Source of the DNA: an uncultured Serinicoccus sp. | Lineage (GTDB): Bacteria; Actinomycetota; Actinomycetes; Actinomycetales; Dermatophilaceae | Length of the DNA: 64,000 bases | Reading direction: 5' to 3' | NCBI RefSeq assembly: GCF_947500995.1 | Contig: NZ_CANMUA010000004.1 | Location: 186,001 to 250,000 of the forward strand | Notes under the pieces: generated by a model | The model's input: the letters and a program-made list of their open reading frames with translations, nothing else | Told to the model about the DNA's origin: nothing | Databases searched by the model: none | Shown: positions 5,481-52,811 of the stretch, piece by piece | How the letters are laid out: the number at the start of each line of letters is the position of its first letter | Numbering within the stretch: the first letter of the stretch is position 1 | Made by a program: the position numbers and the translations under genes

Positions 5481-8417
5481 ATGCCCAGCCCCGCCGAACG
5501 CTACGCCGCCTCGCGCGCCCGGGCCGCGCGTGCCGCCACCCCCGCGGGGCGGTTCACGCAGACCCTCGGCCTGGAGCTCGACGACTTCCAGCGCGAGGCC
5601 ATCGACGCCGTCCAGGACGGCGCCGGGGTCCTCGTCGCGGCCCCGACCGGCGCCGGCAAGACCGTCGTCGGGGAGTTCGCGGTCGCCCTCGCCCTGGAGA
5701 CCGGCCGCAAGGCGTTCTACACGACCCCGATCAAGGCGCTGTCGAACCAGAAGTACCACGACCTCGTCGCGCGGCACGGGTCCGCCAACGTCGGGCTGCT
5801 CACCGGGGACGCCTCGATCAACGGCGAGGCACCGGTGGTCGTCATGACCACCGAGGTGCTGCGCAACATGATGTATGCCGCGTCCCCGACCCTGACCGGC
5901 CTCGGGTTCGTCATCATGGACGAGGTGCACTACCTCGCCGACCGGTGGCGCGGCGCGGTCTGGGAGGAGGTCATCATCCACCTGCCCGAGTCGGTGCAGG
6001 TCATCTCGCTGTCGGCGACGGTCAGCAACGCCGAGGAGTTCGGCGACTGGCTGCGCCAGGTGCGGGGGCGGGGTGACGCCGACTCGCTGCGGGTCATCGT
6101 CTCCGAGCACCGCCCGGTGCCGCTGTGGCAGCACATGATGGTCGGCCAGCGGCTCTACGACCTCTTCGTCACCGACGGGCTGCGGGCGGCGCCCGGGGTC
6201 GACGGGACCACCCGGGTCAACCCCGAGCTGCTGCAGGGCATCTCGGCGGCCGAGCGCTCGGCGCGGGCCGAGGGCGGCTGGCGGCGCGACGACGCCGGCG
6301 GCCCGCGGGGTCGACGGGGCGAGCCACGGGGCCGGGGTCGCTCGGGCGGCGGGCGCGGTGGCGACCGTCGGGACCAGCGGGGGTCACGGCATACCGGGCG
6401 GTCCCGTCGCTACGACGACGCCCGGGGCGTCGGCGGCGGGGGCACCGGCGCCGGGGGAGAGGCGGGCTTCTCCCGCGGGTCGCTGCCCGGGGGCGTGGCG
6501 AGCCGGGCGCAGGTCATCGACCGGCTCGACCGCGACGGGCTGCTGCCGGCCATCACCTTCATCTTCAGCCGGGCCGGGTGCGACGGCGCCGTCCAGCAGC
6601 TGCTGGGCCGCGGCACCCGGCTCATCCCCGAGGAGCAGGGCCAGACGATCCGGGCCCTGGTCGCCGAGCGGGTCGCCGAGGTCGACCCGGCCGACCTCGG
6701 GGTGCTGGGGTACCACGACTTCGTGGAGGGGCTCTCCCGCGGCTACGCCGCGCACCACGCCGGGATGCTGCCGCTCTTCCGCGAGATCGTCGAGGAGCTC
6801 TTCACCGCCGGGCAGGTGCGCTCGGTCTTCGCGACCGAGACGCTCGCGCTCGGCATCAACATGCCGGCCCGCACCGTGGTGCTGGAGAAGCTGGTGAAGT
6901 TCAACGGCGAGGAGCACGCGCCGGTCACCCCGGCGGAGTACACCCAGCTCACCGGCCGGGCCGGCCGCCGGGGCATCGACGTCGAGGGCCACGCCGTGGT
7001 GCTGTGGCGGCGCGGCACCGACCCGATGGACGTCGCCGGGCTCGCCTCGACCCGGACCTACCCGCTGCGCAGCTCCTTCCGGCCCAGCTCCAACATGGCC
7101 GTCAACCTCGTCGCGCAGTACGGCCGCGACCGCGCCCACGAGCTGCTCCAGGCGAGCTTCGCGCAGTTCCAGGCCGACCGGTCCGTCGTCGGGCTCACCA
7201 CCCAGATCCGCTACAACACCGAGGCGCTGGAGGGGTATGCCGAGTCCATGGCCTGCGACCGTGGCGACTTCCGGGAGTACGGCCGGCTGCGCCACCAGCT
7301 CTCCGAGGTCGAGAGGAAGGCCGCCCGGACGCGCCAGGCCCAGCGACGCAGCGACATCGGCCAGGCGCTGGAAGAGCTCGAGCGGGGCCAGGTCATCCAG
7401 CTCGACGGCGGGCGGCACGGCACGATGGCGGTGGTCGTCCGGGGCGCCCGCGGCGCCGGCCCGGAGCCGACGGTCGTCACGTCCAGCGGTCGGGTGCAGC
7501 GGCTGACCATCCCGGGCTTCCGGGACGTCCCCGAGGTCATCGGCACCCTCACGGTGCCCAAGCACTTCAACGAGCGCAGCCCCAAGGCGCGCAAGGACCT
7601 CGCCGCGGCGCTGCGCTCCACCGTCCACGAGCCGATGCCCGGACGGACGTCGTCAGGGCGCGGGCGGGACGGCATACCGGAGGGGGCGGCGGCACAGGTC
7701 GACGAGCTGCGCGCCGCGCTCGCCGCGCACCCCTGCCACAGCTGCCCCGAGCGCGAGGACCACGCGCGGTGGGCGGCGCGGTGGTGGACGCTGCGCAAGG
7801 AGACCGACGACCTGCAGCGGCGGGTGACGCACCGCACGAACACCCTGGCGGCGACCTTCGAGCGGATCTGCGACCTGCTGTCCGCCATGGGGTACCTCAG
7901 CGAGGACGGGCAGGAGGTGACCGCGGAGGGCCAGCGGCTGCGCCGGATCTACACCGAGCTCGACCTCGTCGCCGCCGAGGCGCTGCGGCGCGGGACGTGG
8001 CGACGGCTCACCCCGGCCGACCTCGCCTCGGTCGTCTCCGCGCTCGTGCACGAGTCGCGCGGCGACGAGCCTGGTGACCCGCCGACGCCGAGCGTGGAGG
8101 TGGCCGAGGCGCTGGGCGAGATGGGCTCGATCTGGACCGAGGTGCAGGCCGGCAAGCTGGCGCACAACCTCACCGGCGACCGCGAGCTCGATCCCGGGAT
8201 CACCTGGATGGTCCACCGGTGGGCCTCCGGCCGCGGCCTGGAGGAGGTGCTGCGCTCGGGCGACCTGTCGGCCGGTGACTTCGTCCGCCGGGCCAAGCAG
8301 GTCGTCGACCTGCTCGGCCAGATCACCCACGCGGCCGACGAGGACGTCGCCAGCACCGCCCGCCGTGCCTCCGCCGCGATGCTGCGCGGCGTCGTGGCCG
8401 CCGACCGCCTCGACTGA
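5481..8417 (+). CDS. helY: DEVH-box RNA/DNA helicase HelY (Ski2/Mtr4-like)
   Basis: This 978-residue helicase has Walker A APTGAGKT at 54-61, DEVH at 147-150, SAT at 178-180 and a motif VI-like QLTGRAGRRGID in the second RecA domain. A DSHCT-like C-terminal region follows (from about 790). It matches the actinobacterial HelY family, which resembles eukaryotic Ski2/Mtr4 exosome helicases. A long Arg/Gly-rich insert (about 265-340) separates the two RecA lobes and may be an RNA-binding linker. The start follows TAGCCT by 7 bases, indicating leaderless transcription. It is the last gene of the pafB-to-helY run. Confidence 0.88.
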   Translation: MPSPAERYAASRARAARAATPAGRFTQTLGLELDDFQREAIDAVQDGAGVLVAAPTGAGKTVVGEFAVALALETGRKAFYTTPIKALSNQKYHDLVARHGSANVGLLTGDASINGEAPVVVMTTEVLRNMMYAASPTLTGLGFVIMDEVHYLADRWRGAVWEEVIIHLPESVQVISLSATVSNAEEFGDWLRQVRGRGDADSLRVIVSEHRPVPLWQHMMVGQRLYDLFVTDGLRAAPGVDGTTRVNPELLQGISAAERSARAEGGWRRDDAGGPRGRRGEPRGRGRSGGGRGGDRRDQRGSRHTGRSRRYDDARGVGGGGTGAGGEAGFSRGSLPGGVASRAQVIDRLDRDGLLPAITFIFSRAGCDGAVQQLLGRGTRLIPEEQGQTIRALVAERVAEVDPADLGVLGYHDFVEGLSRGYAAHHAGMLPLFREIVEELFTAGQVRSVFATETLALGINMPARTVVLEKLVKFNGEEHAPVTPAEYTQLTGRAGRRGIDVEGHAVVLWRRGTDPMDVAGLASTRTYPLRSSFRPSSNMAVNLVAQYGRDRAHELLQASFAQFQADRSVVGLTTQIRYNTEALEGYAESMACDRGDFREYGRLRHQLSEVERKAARTRQAQRRSDIGQALEELERGQVIQLDGGRHGTMAVVVRGARGAGPEPTVVTSSGRVQRLTIPGFRDVPEVIGTLTVPKHFNERSPKARKDLAAALRSTVHEPMPGRTSSGRGRDGIPEGAAAQVDELRAALAAHPCHSCPEREDHARWAARWWTLRKETDDLQRRVTHRTNTLAATFERICDLLSAMGYLSEDGQEVTAEGQRLRRIYTELDLVAAEALRRGTWRRLTPADLASVVSALVHESRGDEPGDPPTPSVEVAEALGEMGSIWTEVQAGKLAHNLTGDRELDPGITWMVHRWASGRGLEEVLRSGDLSAGDFVRRAKQVVDLLGQITHAADEDVASTARRASAAMLRGVVAADRLD

Positions 8418-20043: not shown

Positions 20044-21528
20044 TCATGCCCGGGGCGGGTGGTCCTGGTCCCCGTCATCCCGGTCCCGACGCAGGATCGG
20101 CGGCAGCAGCCGGTCGCGCAGGGAGGCGGCGATCTCGCTGGTCCGGTCCAGCAGGGCGACGCGGGCCGCCCCCTGCTCCCCCTGCGCCTGGAGGTAGGCC
20201 CGGCGAGCCCGCAGCTGGAAGATGGGGGCGGCGCTCTCGGCCCGCTGCGCGGCCCGGCGCCCCTCGTCGGTGATGTTGCGCAGGTCGTCGGTGTGCAGCT
20301 CGCCGGTGCGCAGGTCCAGGTGCTCGCTGCCGAACCTGATGAGGGTGAGCGCCGAGGCGAGCACAGGGACGGCGAGGAAGGCGCCGAGCACGCCCCACAG
20401 GGTGCCGCCGGCCGCGACCCCCAGGATCACCACGACCGGGTGCATCGACATGACGCGGCTGTGCATGAGGGGAGCCACGAAGGTGCTCTCCGCCTGCTGG
20501 ACCACCACGACGATGACGAGCACCCACAGCGCGGTGACCCAGCCCTGCGACACCAGCGCGACGAGCACCGCGAGGCCACCGGCGACGAAGGCACCGACGA
20601 TGGGGATGAAGGCCAGGAAGAAGGTGATGACGGCGAGGGCGAAGGCCAGCGGCACCTGCAGCAGGACCAGCCCGAGGCCGATGAAGACCGAGTCGACGGC
20701 GGCGACGACGGCCTGCGCCCGCAGGAAGCCGCCGAGCGTCACCCACACCCGCGCCAGCGCCTCGGTGAGGTACAGACCGGCGGTACGCCCGACGGACGTG
20801 CGCAGCCAGGGCAGGAAGCGGTGCCCGTCCTTGAGGAAGAAGAAGGTCAGCACGAGCACGAGGACGGTGGTCACCAGGATGGAGCCGACGGTGGACAGCG
20901 TCGACAGTGCCCCCTCGGCCAGGACGCTGGCCCGCGACTCCAGCCACTCGGTGGCCCGGTCGACGTAGTCGTCGAGCTGCTCGCTCTGGAGGTTCACCGG
21001 GGGACCGGAGAGCCACTCCAGGACGATGTCGGCCCCCTCGGTGACGTTGTCGGCGACCTGGCGCAGCTGGCTGCCCACCCCCGGGGCGATGGCGGCGACG
21101 ATGCCGCCGAAGATGGCGAGCGCCGTCACCATCACGGTGGCGGCGGCGAGCCCGGCCGGCCAGCGGTGCCGACGGAGCCAGCGCACGACGGGCCACAGCA
21201 CGGAGCTGACGATGAGGGCGAGGATGATCGGCAGCACCCCGACCCAGACCCGCCCGAGCAGGTAGAGCACGACGGCGACCGCGGCGACGACGAGCAGGAA
21301 GCGCCACGACCAGGCGGCCGCGCTGCGCAGCCCCTGCAGGATGAGGTCGCCGCGGTCGACGGTCGGCGGCACCGCGCGCGCGTCCTCGGCGGGCCCCTCG
21401 GCCGGCTGGTCCTGCGGGGACGGTGCGCCGGGCTCGGCCTGGTGCGGCTGCAGGTCGGGGTCGGGGTCCGGGTCGAGGGAGGGCGCGTCCTCGTCCTGGT
21501 CCGGCCCGGGCTGGTCCTGGGCGCTCAT
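20044..21528 (-). CDS. AI-2E family transporter (PerM-like)
   Basis: This 494-residue protein has the AI-2E exporter topology: a hydrophobic N-terminal block (about 80-150), a soluble middle (about 155-225), then helices including LVLTFFFLKDGHRFLPWL, FIPIVGAFVAGGLAVL and HPVVVILGVAAGGTLWGVLGAFLAVPV. The substrate of this subgroup is not known; some members are Na+/H+ antiporters. The N-terminal 60 residues are an Asp/Pro/Gln-rich disordered region. The ATG at 21528 has a GGAGGA ribosome site and overlaps the mutarotase stop (ATGA). Confidence 0.83.
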   Translation of the reverse strand: MSAQDQPGPDQDEDAPSLDPDPDPDLQPHQAEPGAPSPQDQPAEGPAEDARAVPPTVDRGDLILQGLRSAAAWSWRFLLVVAAVAVVLYLLGRVWVGVLPIILALIVSSVLWPVVRWLRRHRWPAGLAAATVMVTALAIFGGIVAAIAPGVGSQLRQVADNVTEGADIVLEWLSGPPVNLQSEQLDDYVDRATEWLESRASVLAEGALSTLSTVGSILVTTVLVLVLTFFFLKDGHRFLPWLRTSVGRTAGLYLTEALARVWVTLGGFLRAQAVVAAVDSVFIGLGLVLLQVPLAFALAVITFFLAFIPIVGAFVAGGLAVLVALVSQGWVTALWVLVIVVVVQQAESTFVAPLMHSRVMSMHPVVVILGVAAGGTLWGVLGAFLAVPVLASALTLIRFGSEHLDLRTGELHTDDLRNITDEGRRAAQRAESAAPIFQLRARRAYLQAQGEQGAARVALLDRTSEIAASLRDRLLPPILRRDRDDGDQDHPPRA

Positions 21529-26369: not shown

Positions 26370-27461
26370 CTAGGGTGCGGCGGGGTCCTCGCGCTGCTGC
26401 GTGCTCGGCGGGTCCGCGGGGGCTCCCACCTCGGCCGCGTCGCCGGCGACGCCGTTGTGGGGGATGAGCGTGCCGGTGACCTCGTGGTGCGGCCAGTCCA
26501 GGGTGTACGGCACCGTCTGGGTCACGTAGTTCGGGGTCTCCCGCGCATGCACCTCGGTGGGGACGACCGGCAGGTTGGTGTGCGGGGGGTTGGCGGTCCA
26601 GGCCGCGGTGAACATCACCCACCGCAGGCCCAGGTTGATCCACACGATGAGCGTGACCAGGACCGCGAAGGAGGCGAAGACCGGGTTGTCCCAGGCACCG
26701 ATGACCTGCGTGCCGGCCAGCCGCAGCAGCCCCCACCCGGCGGCCCCGAGCAGCGCGCCCTTCCACCAGTCGGGGGAGGGCATCCGCACCTTGGCCGTGA
26801 CCCGGAAGAGCAGGTAGAAGACGACCGCGTCCACGATGAAGGCGGCGACGACGGCCGCCAGCCGGATGAGCAGGCCGCTGGTGCCCCGGCTCACCTCGAG
26901 CTCGCCGAGCACCGCCCGGGCCAGCACGTTGGACCCGCTGAGCAGCGCCGAGGAGAGCAGCACCGCGAGGCTGAGCAGCAGGATGCCGACGGCGTCCCAG
27001 CCCTTGCCCCGGAAGGGGCGCATCGGCGCCCCGGTGAGCCCGAACATCGACCGGATGCTGTTGCGCAGCCCGGTCATGACGTTCGTGGCCGTCCACAGCA
27101 GGACCGGGATCGACACGAGCGTGGCCAGGGTGAGCGAGCGCTCGAGGACGAGTAGGTCGGGGTCGACGATGCCGCCGTTGCTGCCGTCGTCCACCAGCCC
27201 CGGGAAGGCGGTGTTGATCGCGCGGACCACCCGGTCGAAGAGCTCGGGTTGGCGGCCCAGGACCGCGCGGAACCCGTTGACCCCGATCGTCATGAGCGCG
27301 ACGAGGGAGACCAGGGCCGAGATGGTGACACCCCCGGCCGACAGGTTGCCGCGCACCAGCAGGTAGCGCACGAAGGCCCGCACCGGTCGCGAGGTGTCCA
27401 CCCGGTGGATGGCGCGCCAGAAGAGGTTGCGCTCGACCCCGTCCTCCTGGACCTCCGCCAC
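26370..27461 (-). CDS. YihY/UPF0761 family inner membrane protein
   Basis: This 363-residue protein has six hydrophobic helices and the YihY features NLFWRAIHRVDTSR-like N-terminus, GLRNSIRSMFGL and the DWWKGALLGAAGWGLLR segment. These proteins were once misnamed RNase BN; their role is unknown. The GTG at 27461 was chosen because a strong AAGGAGG ribosome site lies 7 bases upstream. The C-terminal 90 residues after the last helix are a polar extension. A perfect CGGTATACCG palindrome lies upstream at 27505-27514. Confidence 0.82.
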   Translation of the reverse strand: MAEVQEDGVERNLFWRAIHRVDTSRPVRAFVRYLLVRGNLSAGGVTISALVSLVALMTIGVNGFRAVLGRQPELFDRVVRAINTAFPGLVDDGSNGGIVDPDLLVLERSLTLATLVSIPVLLWTATNVMTGLRNSIRSMFGLTGAPMRPFRGKGWDAVGILLLSLAVLLSSALLSGSNVLARAVLGELEVSRGTSGLLIRLAAVVAAFIVDAVVFYLLFRVTAKVRMPSPDWWKGALLGAAGWGLLRLAGTQVIGAWDNPVFASFAVLVTLIVWINLGLRWVMFTAAWTANPPHTNLPVVPTEVHARETPNYVTQTVPYTLDWPHHEVTGTLIPHNGVAGDAAEVGAPADPPSTQQREDPAAP

Positions 27462-27608
27462 CCGTCGTCCTCCTTCGCTGAGCGACCGCACCTGCGGCAC
27501 CACACGGTATACCGCACCGCGGGCGGCGCCGCGCCCGTTCCGGTCCGCGTCGGGCACCGCGGGCGCGTCGTGGTGGACAGCGCGTGACGCCGGGGGTCGA
27601 ATGGGGGC

Positions 27609-28019
27609 ATGGACGCAGCGGCACCTGACCAGCGGGCGGCCGAGCCGTGCCGGCGCATCGAGGACGGCTCGCTGCAGGCGGCCGACCCCACGCCCGGGAT
27701 GAGCCGGCGGGTGGCCGAGCACGCGGGCGGCATGTGGACCGGGACCGTCGACACCGAGCCGGGGGCGGTGACCGGCTGGCACCACCACGGCGAGCACGAG
27801 ACGACCCTCTACATCGTCTCCGGCAGGTTCCGGCTGGAGTCCGGGCCTGGTGGCGGCGACGTCGTCGAGGCCGGTCCCGGAGACTTCGTGCGGGTGCCGG
27901 CCGGCGCCGTGCACCGGGAGTCCAACCCCGGGGACGAGAGCTCCCGGGCGGTGATCGTGCGCTGCGGCAGCGGTGCGCCCACGGTCAACGTGGACGGCCC
28001 GGCCACCGCCGCGGACTGA
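27609..28019 (+). CDS. Cupin domain protein
   Basis: This 136-residue single-domain cupin has motif 1 GWHHHGEHETTLYIVSGRF and motif 2 PGDFVRVPAGAVHRESNP, supplying the three His and one Glu of a metal site. Its reaction is unknown; small cupins of this type include dioxygenases, isomerases and sensors. The N-terminal 30 residues (DAAAPDQRAAEPCRRIEDGS) are polar and may be flexible. It is divergent from the YihY gene and is followed at 101 bp by the unknown gene near dif. Confidence 0.8.
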   Translation: MDAAAPDQRAAEPCRRIEDGSLQAADPTPGMSRRVAEHAGGMWTGTVDTEPGAVTGWHHHGEHETTLYIVSGRFRLESGPGGGDVVEAGPGDFVRVPAGAVHRESNPGDESSRAVIVRCGSGAPTVNVDGPATAAD

Positions 28020-28120
28020 GACCGAGAACCCGATCCGACTGGACCTGCGACCCGAGGACGGTCTCGTTAGGATCAGGTGAAGGCGCGAGCGAGCACAGCG
28101 CAGAGAGCGAGCGTGAGCTG

Positions 28121-28576
28121 ATGATCTTTGGACGACGTTCGAACGAGGAGTCCGGGCCGACACCGGCGGAGCTGGAGCTGGCCCGCACCCAGTACCTGCT
28201 GCGGACGGCCAAGGAACCCTTGCTCAGCCAAGTCGTCGTGGATGTACTCGGCACCCTCAGGCCCGAGGTCCGCGAGGAGTGGCGTGCCGGTCTGTACGAG
28301 CAGGGGCTGGCCGTCGAGCCGCTGACCGCGGAGGCCCTGGTGGAGATGGTCACGGGTCGGGACGAGGCGCGGAAGGCGCTGGGGCGCTCCGCCACGGCAG
28401 CGGTGGCCGATGTGGTCGCGGGTCTGATCTCGGCGTCACCCGGATTCCGAGGGTTCGCGAGCTCGCCGGAGGCCCGAGAGATCGGTGTGCCGGACCCGGA
28501 CAGGCAGATCGCCCGGCAACGTCCACGAGCGGAGCCGCCCTACCTGCCAGGGACGACGGCCGGCACCCGACGTTGA
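28121..28576 (+). CDS. Hypothetical protein beside the dif site
   Basis: I do not recognise this 151-residue protein. It starts MIFGRRSNEESG, has a helical, Leu/Val/Glu-rich middle (TPAELELARTQYLLRTAKEP onward) that may be a small helical bundle, and a Pro/Arg-rich tail. No membrane segment or signal peptide is seen. A TAGGAT box lies about 50 bases upstream. It ends 31 bases before dif and is less G+C-rich than its neighbours, so recent acquisition near the terminus is possible but not shown. Confidence 0.55.
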   Translation: MIFGRRSNEESGPTPAELELARTQYLLRTAKEPLLSQVVVDVLGTLRPEVREEWRAGLYEQGLAVEPLTAEALVEMVTGRDEARKALGRSATAAVADVVAGLISASPGFRGFASSPEAREIGVPDPDRQIARQRPRAEPPYLPGTTAGTRR

Positions 28577-28606
28577 ATCGCGAGCGGGGCGCTGACGGGA
28601 TCGGAT

Positions 28607-28634
28607 CACGCCGATAAGGCACATTATGTCAAGT
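28607..28634 (+). other. dif: Chromosome dimer resolution site dif (XerC/XerD)
   Basis: The 28 bases consist of a left arm CACGCCGATAA (28607-28617), a 6-bp centre GGCACA (28618-28623) and a right arm TTATGTCAAGT (28624-28634). From memory, the actinobacterial dif consensus is TTSRCCGATAA, TVNACA, TTATGTCAAGT. The right arm matches 11 of 11 and the left arm 9 of 11; the centre differs only at its first base. The site lies between genes in a locally A+T-rich spot. The GGGGGAG strand switch falls between 26778 and 29546 and so brackets it. Confidence 0.88.
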
Positions 28635-28665
28635 AACAGTCACGGCCCGTCGCCCGACAGGGCCC

Positions 28666-29589
28666 TCACCCCTCCCGGCGGTGCCGGTCGACGAGCTCGG
28701 CGGCGTCGACCTCGCCCATCCCCCGGACGACGCGCAGCGCCGCGTCCTCGGTCCAGGGCTCGTGGACCGGCCGGGTCTGGTCGCTGACCCGCAGGTGACT
28801 GTCACCCAGGTCACGCACCACGACCCAGTGGTCGCCGTCCGGCTGCCGGTAGACGCCGATGCCGTCCCCGAGGTCGACGCACGGCCGCAGGTCGAGGGCT
28901 GCGCACGCGCCGCCCCCGGGACGGATGCCGACGTCGAGGCACCCGGCCCCGTCCGGCTCGACCCGGGCCAGCGTGTAGCGCACCGTCCCGCCGGAGGCCG
29001 TCAGCGTGGCCAGGCGCACGTCCTCGGTGTCCGGTGGCGCGACGAGGGTCACGCCCACCGCCTCCAGCCCGGCGATCTCCTGGGCGCGCTCGCGTCCCTC
29101 GAGCGACCACCAGGAGCCGGCCAGCAGGGCGAGCGCCAGCCCCAGGACCACCACGCCCCGCACCCAGGACCAACCCCCGGCGGTGAGGGCCGCGGCCGCC
29201 GGCGGCCCGGGACGGACCGCCGTCAGACCGGCCAGGACCGGCGCCAGGACGGCCAGCGCGAGGCCGAGCGGCTGCGCGAGCGTCCCGGCCAGCGCCGCGA
29301 CCCCGACGAGGACCAGCGTCGTGGGCAGCCACCACCAGCGCATGGTGCGCCGGCACAGCACGGCCGCCGCCAGGGCCCCGACGAGCCCGCCCAGCAGGGC
29401 CCCGCCCAGAGGGGGGCCCAGGCACTCCAGCCCGCCCTCGCACGGAAGCGCCGCACCGACCGCCAGCCCGGCCGTGCCCAGGAGCAGGACGAGCAGGAAC
29501 CACGCGGCGAGGGCCCGCAGCAGAGCCGCCGGGCGGACCCGGCCGCTCCCCCGACCCCGGCGCCCGGCGTGGCCCCCGCGCCGGGTCAC
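28666..29589 (-). CDS. Multi-pass membrane protein with C-terminal extracytoplasmic domain
   Basis: I do not recognise this 307-residue protein. It has an N-terminal Arg/Gly-rich cytoplasmic segment, about five transmembrane helices (27-185) and a C-terminal soluble part (about 190-305) with three cysteines (CLDVGI, CAALDL, CVDLGD) and an IGVYRQPDGDHWVVVRDLGDSH strand region. The GTG at 29589 overlaps the stop of the hydrolase gene (GTGA), so they are co-translated. dif lies 31 bases beyond its stop codon. Function unknown. Confidence 0.55.
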   Translation of the reverse strand: MTRRGGHAGRRGRGSGRVRPAALLRALAAWFLLVLLLGTAGLAVGAALPCEGGLECLGPPLGGALLGGLVGALAAAVLCRRTMRWWWLPTTLVLVGVAALAGTLAQPLGLALAVLAPVLAGLTAVRPGPPAAAALTAGGWSWVRGVVVLGLALALLAGSWWSLEGRERAQEIAGLEAVGVTLVAPPDTEDVRLATLTASGGTVRYTLARVEPDGAGCLDVGIRPGGGACAALDLRPCVDLGDGIGVYRQPDGDHWVVVRDLGDSHLRVSDQTRPVHEPWTEDAALRVVRGMGEVDAAELVDRHRREG

Positions 29590-45770: not shown

Positions 45771-45872
45771 CCAGAGTTGCCTGCTTCGCGTGGTCCCGGG
45801 CGCCTGAGAGCTTGGTGGGGAGTATGCCCCTTCGGCGCCTCACCGCTGCAGGGTGAGGACTCTCCCACGCGA
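45771..45872 (-). promoter_or_regulatory. Glycine riboswitch (single aptamer) upstream of gcvP
   Basis: Read on the - strand the leader has the ordered glycine-aptamer motifs GGGAGAGTCCTC, GCGCCGAAGGGGCAT, CTCTCAGGCGCC and a closing GCAACTCTGGAA. These match the GCVT element consensus, with one aptamer rather than the tandem pair. A promoter with -10 TAGATT (45889-45894) and -35-like TCGACC lies 16 bases apart just upstream. It should activate gcvP when glycine is high. Confidence 0.88.
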
Positions 45873-45934
45873 CGTCGTCGGCGTGACCAATCTAGCACCG
45901 GTCTGGCCCAGGTCGACCCCGGCGGGCCTGCCGG

Positions 45935-52328: not shown

Positions 52329-52811
52329 ATGATCCACCTCGGGCACTGCCTGTGGTTCGACGACCAGGCGCAGGAGGCGGCCGAGTTCTACTGCTCCGTC
52401 GTGCCGGGCTCGCGCGTCCTGGAGGTGAGCCGATACACCGCGGAGACACCCTCGGACAAGCCGGTCGGCTCGGTGCTGACGGTCGAGTTCGAGCTCGCCG
52501 GCGTGCGCTACACCGGCCTCAACGGCGGGCCGCACTTCACCCCTGACGAGGCCTTCTCCATCGTGCTCCGGACGGACACCCAGGAGGAGACCGACCACTA
52601 CTGGGCGGCCCTGCTGGAGGGCGGCGGGCAGGAGAGCCAGTGCGGCTGGCTCAGGGACCGCTACGGCGTCTCCTGGCAGGTCTACCCGACCGAGCTGGAC
52701 GAGCTCACCACCCACGAGGACCCCGAGGTCGCCCGCCGGGCGACCGAGGTCATGCTCACCCAGCGCAAGATCGAGATGGGCCCGATCCGGGATGCCGCGC
52801 TCGGCGGGTGA
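52329..52811 (+). CDS. VOC/PhnB-like (3-demethylubiquinone methyltransferase-fold) protein
   Basis: This 160-residue protein matches the PhnB-type VOC family: IHLGHCLWFDDQAQEAAEFY at the start, then a GLNGGPHFTPDEAFSIVL centre and CGWLRDRYGVSWQVYPTEL. Members bind small molecules or metals; the reaction is unknown. It has no enzyme neighbours and is convergent with the DUF3830 gene. Confidence 0.82.
   Translation: MIHLGHCLWFDDQAQEAAEFYCSVVPGSRVLEVSRYTAETPSDKPVGSVLTVEFELAGVRYTGLNGGPHFTPDEAFSIVLRTDTQEETDHYWAALLEGGGQESQCGWLRDRYGVSWQVYPTELDELTTHEDPEVARRATEVMLTQRKIEMGPIRDAALGG

Follow-up and report, generated by a model that had tools for sequence, protein, structure and literature searches.

The closest described systems are the architecture-imparting sequences (AIMS) of Corynebacterium, for which the octamers G(A/T/C)GGGGGA and (T/C)GGGGGAG have been printed and, in C. 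aurimucosum and C. resistens, employed to pinpoint dif (PMC2830990, PMC3350403). The AIMS passages of both papers cite Hendrickson and Lawrence 2006, and for C. aurimucosum the relevant passage gives leading-strand-biased octamer copies of 856/61 (PMC2830990). Here we analyzed a 64,000-nucleotide window (the whole stretch of DNA under study) from an uncultured Serinicoccus sp. (contig NZ_CANMUA010000004.1, positions 186,001 to 250,000), in which a 28-bp dif site lies where the heptamer GGGGGAG switches strand. As far as the Corynebacterium passages describe their AIMS, the two cases share the core word, the leading-strand bias and the role as pointer to a 28-bp actinobacterial dif; they differ in genus, and in that the consensus here was probed base by base. 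The combination of dif with a polar word is of a kind already published, and what is new is a base-by-base consensus that is sharper than the printed AIMS octamer.

The second point of comparison is provided by the FtsK-orienting polar sequences (KOPS) of E. coli and V. cholerae, GGGNAGGG, which, in the passages describing them (PMC2533119, PMC2680272), share with our locus the polarity, the convergence on dif, the G-richness and a homologous FtsK-gamma domain. They differ in that the words GGGCAGGG, GGGAAGGG and GGGTAGGG are unpolarized on our contig. Literature searches for GGGGGAG together with FtsK turned up only unrelated work, and for the genus names combined with FtsK, KOPS or AIMS nothing on topic was found among the matches listed. 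Nolivos 2012 reportedly deals with KOPS co-evolution. Our reading, to which we assign a probability of roughly 0.87, is that the locus represents the terminus of replication on a circular chromosome from the Serinicoccus/Ornithinimicrobium group, comprising dif and converging fields of a guide word that would be read by FtsK-gamma. The features on which it is built are as follows (window coordinates).

28607–28634, + strand: dif, the XerC/XerD chromosome-dimer resolution site (likeness to the Frankia alni dif, pattern search)
28607–28617, + strand: putative XerC-binding arm, CACGCCGATAA (homology to the known 11+6+11 dif layout)
28618–28623, + strand: central region, GGCACA (situated between both arms)
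28624–28634, + strand: putative XerD-binding arm, TTATGTCAAGT (no difference from the right arm predicted for F. alni; occurs once in the window)
373–26778, + strand: left array of 20 GGGGGAG copies pointing right, toward dif (motif count)
20176–20182, − strand: lone window copy pointing away from dif (motif count)
29546–62909, − strand: right array of 25 GGGGGAG copies pointing left, toward dif (motif count)
26779–29545, no strand: motif-free switch interval enclosing dif (best split of the 166 copies on the contig)

The dif sequence, CACGCCGATAAGGCACATTATGTCAAGT, occurs once in the window, on the + strand, and has the length of 28 bp, the 11+6+11 layout and the likeness to the sequence known from the phylum by which such sites are recognized. 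Compared directly with the dif predicted for Frankia alni, 27 of its 28 letters are identical, the sole difference, judged from the passage giving that prediction (PMC3025954), being the first base of the central region, which is G here and not T. The initial annotation had proposed a XerC/XerD-type dif with a consensus-identical right arm at this position; the site is borne out, and the arm is identical to that of the F. alni prediction. Set against the E. coli dif, 18 of 28 letters match. We also searched with a looser pattern, allowing up to one mismatch and using the reversed pattern as control. Across the whole 3.8-Mb source genome (45 contigs) the search for a second site returned this single match, with none for the control, while same-genus relatives carry exactly one match in 28 of 30 cases and none in the other two. 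Altogether, 46 of the 58 genomes searched, including the source genome, contain a match. The complete same-genus chromosome G012 (3,463,442 bp) has dnaA at position 588 and its dif at 1,659,346, an indirect indication that dif lies opposite the origin. The source contig additionally encodes XerD (332.5 bits; curated cut-off 329.6), and by analogy with characterized systems 28607–28634 is a putative substrate of FtsK-controlled XerCD recombination. Two species of the genus have xerD at a distance of ~53–55 kb from dif and, with the orientation of dif as reference, to the same side of it (269420 on the source contig, 1605290 in G012). As a separate observation, the same-family genome G033 carries four dif-like sites on three contigs (C1:1757713, C5:56679, C2:391976 and C2:627413), which possibly reflect Xer-using mobile elements or several replicons.

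The polarity of GGGGGAG reverses sharply at this site. To the left of dif, the window contains 20 copies on the + strand and one on the − strand; to the right, there are none on the + strand and 25 on the − strand, where 24 had originally been counted. The positions given earlier for the last forward copy (26772) and for the first one in reverse (29546) were both confirmed. Consequently 45 of the 46 window copies face dif (one-sided binomial 6.7e-13), the smallest value among all window 7-mers, followed by CGGGGGA (3e-8). The pattern extends over the entire 324,280-bp contig, with 102 + and 6 − copies in the left 214 kb and 0 + and 58 − copies in the right 110 kb, so that no + strand copy occurs between dif and the contig end. 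GGGGGAG is the top-ranked polar 7-mer here as well. The best split of the contig (212772–215546; 2.8 kb) contains dif at contig position 214607 and leaves 160 of 166 copies consistent. The earlier interpretation as a chromosome terminus is supported. GC skew, however, fails to show where that terminus lies, and we rejected it as a second marker because it was noisy in the window and flat along both the contig and the sampled G012 chromosome.

To follow the bias along a complete chromosome, twenty evenly spaced 20-kb samples of G012 were taken (12% of 3.46 Mb). They contain 119 GGGGGAG copies pointing toward dif and 25 pointing away, and the sign change, which the initial annotation had named as a check, falls between the samples at 1.62–1.64 and 1.80–1.82 Mb, an interval that contains dif. 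Sorted into distance quartiles from dif outward, the raw toward/away counts are 40/3, 33/3, 23/8 and 23/11, corresponding to a fall from 93% to 68% in the proportion of right-way copies. Part of the literature defines AIMS by a rise toward the terminus (passage in PMC5993296). Both the leading-strand bias (160/6 on the contig and 119/25 in the G012 samples) and the increase in abundance and bias toward the terminus (raw quartile counts in G012) are observed.

We then examined 80 kb around dif in two genomes from the same family and eight from the order, all chosen because a long contig carried their dif match. The toward/away counts of these ten relatives (37/5, 26/0, 28/1, 27/0, 52/0, 31/1, 29/1, 16/0, 13/1 and 48/0) sum to 307/9. 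Five further genomes (one from the family, one from the order, two from the class and one from the phylum) gave 48/0, 23/3, 8/1, 13/0 and 25/0, in sum 117/4, with 26/16 for the reversed word GAGGGGG as control. A reversal at dif, as expected of KOPS, is seen on the source contig and in all 15 of these genomes, whose best split encloses dif in every case, extending at most 2 kb to either side in nine and spanning a wide interval in two (G090 and G120). In 11 of the 15, GGGGGAG ranks first among all 7-mers, with ranks of 2, 5, 6 and 111 in the others. In the distant genome G068, 40 kb yielded 11/1, and the best hexamer was GGGGAG (26/4). A collection-wide scan retrieved at least 120 loci, each no longer than 8 kb, that carry a dif match; titles were available for 80 of the 120 listed, nearly all of them actinobacterial and one labelled Candidatus Fonsibacter. 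Among the matches listed, the 120 loci contain 327 copies toward and 5 away from dif (reversed control: 45/18), and the 76 loci with a GC content below 60% contain 190/1, their 191 copies being five times the 38 expected from dinucleotides. Alongside GGGGGAG (31/1), the 80 kb around dif in G044 hold a second polar word, GGGCAA (29/0; as GGGCAAG, 17/0). A possible polarity switch inside contig C1 was rejected, since strand runs were untrustworthy among the copies listed (493 forward and 1010 reverse overall).

To define the word, single-base substitutions were scored as toward/away on the source contig and then in 12 relatives of the order. At position 1, A is partly tolerated (11/4 on the contig; 75/6 in relatives). 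Any substitution at positions 2–6 (GGGGA) costs most of the polarity, leaving 41–68% of copies toward dif on the contig, compared with 160 of 166 for GGGGGAG; the largest leftovers are GGAGGAG (131/61 and, in relatives, 221/122) and GGGAGAG (84/34 in relatives). Position 7 retains some polarity with C (74/27 and 102/29) and, in relatives, with T (52/20). Upstream, a 5' C or T is preferred, and CGGGGGAG reaches 80/1 on the contig and 236/0 in relatives. The local word is therefore about YRGGGGAG. The E. coli KOPS words GGGCAGGG, GGGAAGGG and GGGTAGGG gave 20/24, 3/5 and 6/6 on the contig. The related GGGGAGGG is polarized (33/9; 67/9 in the 12 relatives), mainly when preceded by G (21/0; 34/0) or A (2/0; 9/0) and little after C (9/7; 18/8). 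The GGGNAGGG pattern as such does not describe the local motif: with N = A, C or T it is unpolarized, and with N = G it is polarized mainly after G or A. Hence the motif is a distinct word that overlaps GGGNAGGG only as GGGGAGGG. GAAGAAG, which we take to be the Lactococcus-type word, was rejected as a local guide (38/41; 100/116 in the 12 order relatives), and GAGAAGGG, presumably of the SpoIIIE type, gave 3/4 on the contig and 36/10 in the 12 relatives. The suggestion that an AIMS/KOPS-like motif is present, with GGGGGAG as its likely local form, thus gains support, the same core word having been published within the Corynebacterium AIMS octamers; as a candidate FtsK guide, the motif shows the polarity switch at dif, and the word is amended to ~YRGGGGAG, differing from GGGNAGGG.

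A candidate reader is present. The source genome encodes one strong FtsK-gamma domain (E 2e-23) in addition to a sub-threshold match, and all 28 other genomes searched contain a domain over the cut-off. The source domain is homologous to FtsK domains of known structure (2j5p and 2ve8/2ve9; phmmer E ~1e-6), which we take to be those of E. coli and P. aeruginosa, respectively. We transferred the E. coli residue numbering through the alignment, leaving out sub-threshold domains. In 29 of 29 domains, A, G, R, D and E occupy positions 1296, 1299, 1300, 1303 and 1306, where E. coli has N, A, R, E and E; relative to the known structures, R1300 and E1306 are thus retained and N1296, A1299 and E1303 are replaced by A, G and D. 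The commonest recognition helix, QRKLRVGFAKAGRLMDLM, is found in 12 of the 29 domains. Residues reported to recognize KOPS are N1296, R1300 and E1303 in a passage of one study (PMC2533119), and R1300, E1303 and E1306 in a passage of another (PMC2680272). An altered reading helix accompanying an altered word fits FtsK reading that word, although it does not prove it.

Reasoning from E. coli and Vibrio, we propose that FtsK, which pumps DNA at the septum, would most likely bind ~YRGGGGAG through its gamma domain. The motor would load facing dif and reel DNA toward it, and on meeting XerC/XerD at dif it may activate XerD and so trigger recombination, by which chromosome dimers are resolved.

Several observations weigh against this reading. 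The copy number of GGGGGAG in the window is ordinary (46 versus 36.5 ± 5.9 in dinucleotide shuffles, with 7 of 100 shuffles reaching 46), and the signal is carried by polarity, not by abundance. The reversed word is itself mildly directed toward dif on the source contig (66/43, excluding the 20-kb bin that straddles dif), in the ten relatives (78/38) and in G012 (62/36, two end samples excluded). Among the 15 genomes, the weaker cases are G090 (8/1, rank 111), G040 (13/1, rank 5) and G036 (23/3, rank 6). On the origin side, the switch is not sharp at dnaA: the 25 kb to its right in the source genome (contig C10, 134344–159866) hold 1 + and 7 − copies, and the first 20 kb of G012, likewise right of dnaA, hold 0 + and 4 −. 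A search for parS near dnaA as the cause of this anomaly gave only two matches with three mismatches each. In two other genomes, for which forward copies only were listed, the first such copy lies at 52,705 among the copies listed (G011, dnaA at 654) and forward copies start at 6,374 (G026). Finally, the genome G078 (9.17 Mb in one contig, dnaA at 4.50 Mb, six SsgA matches) gave no match in the dif-pattern search, and the best of its eight XerD-family matches scores 72 bits, below the cut-off of 330. Nevertheless, twenty samples contain 89 GGGGGAG copies directed away from dnaA against 23 directed toward it, without a gradient, and its reversed control (53/33) narrows the contrast. As polarity is found there without a dif match or a XerD above the cut-off, dif is not the sole reason for it.

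One alternative, for which the polarity in G078 speaks, is that the word belongs to another leading-strand system, for example as a Chi-like signal read by a recombination nuclease, and that its reversal at dif reflects only where replication ends. We regard this as improbable, because the bias in G012 is stronger near the terminus, the switch lies within 2 kb of dif in nine of 15 genomes, tighter than we would expect of fork meeting points, and the KOPS-reading residues of FtsK-gamma depart from E. coli where the word departs too. Marginally less probable still is that no protein reads the word and that it simply follows replication-strand mutation bias or leading-strand G-richness. The motif is indeed rich in G and biased to the leading strand, its reversed form has a mild bias of the same sign, and G078 is polarized; however, GC skew is flat on the contig and the sampled chromosome, the bias of the reversed control stays far below that of the motif, and substitutions at positions 2–6 abolish most of the polarity. 

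Gene direction was assessed with gene calls from a simple GC-frame method (246 genes covering 82% of the contig, 170 of which run toward dif). Toward-dif copies are distributed over coding (98) and template strands (39) of called genes, with three away-pointing copies on template strands, and intergenic or uncalled DNA contains 23 toward and 0 away. Synonymous-codon shuffles within genes (n = 200) yielded 99 ± 8 toward and 40 ± 5 away, so gene direction accounts for part of the bias, but the observed 160 and 6 lie outside both extremes (at most 123 toward, at least 28 away). A coding bias, in which coding strands are rich in the word and most genes face dif, is therefore highly unlikely as the explanation: right-way copies are more numerous, and wrong-way copies scarcer, than gene direction accounts for, and the earlier statement that both gene strands carry the motif and that coding bias is insufficient holds on the contig.

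As for the surroundings of dif, a cupin-domain protein is encoded to its left (27609–28019, + strand), and between it and the site is an open frame whose end, at 28576, nearly adjoins dif (151 aa on the + strand from an ATG at 28121). This frame had no Pfam match and no tblastn match at 1e-5 to 30 loci (3 kb around dif of relatives), and was rejected as a conserved gene adjoining dif. Farther to the right, a glycine riboswitch aptamer is located at 45781–45877 on the − strand (55.2 bits; gathering score 32).

In practical terms, dif together with the GGGGGAG switch allows the terminus of a high-GC draft genome to be located when GC skew is of no help, and the consensus along with the changed FtsK-gamma residues reduces the word of the actinobacterial FtsK to a simple binding question. 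More tentatively, and at somewhat less than even odds, Actinomycetota may share an FtsK word of their own, YRGGGGAG, read with Ala1296/Gly1299/Asp1303, whose polarity would be selected for septal pumping and not only for dimer resolution. The pumping part of this proposal draws on the persistence of polarity in the sporulation-type G078, which we suspect to be a linear Streptomyces-type chromosome from its central dnaA and SsgA genes; an ungapped comparison of 4 kb per end (1076 of 4000 positions equal) revealed no terminal inverted repeats. With its weaker polarity, G078 raises the question of what maintains polar guide words where dif has no part in resolving dimers and, if its pattern holds more widely, polarity would serve DNA pumping as such.

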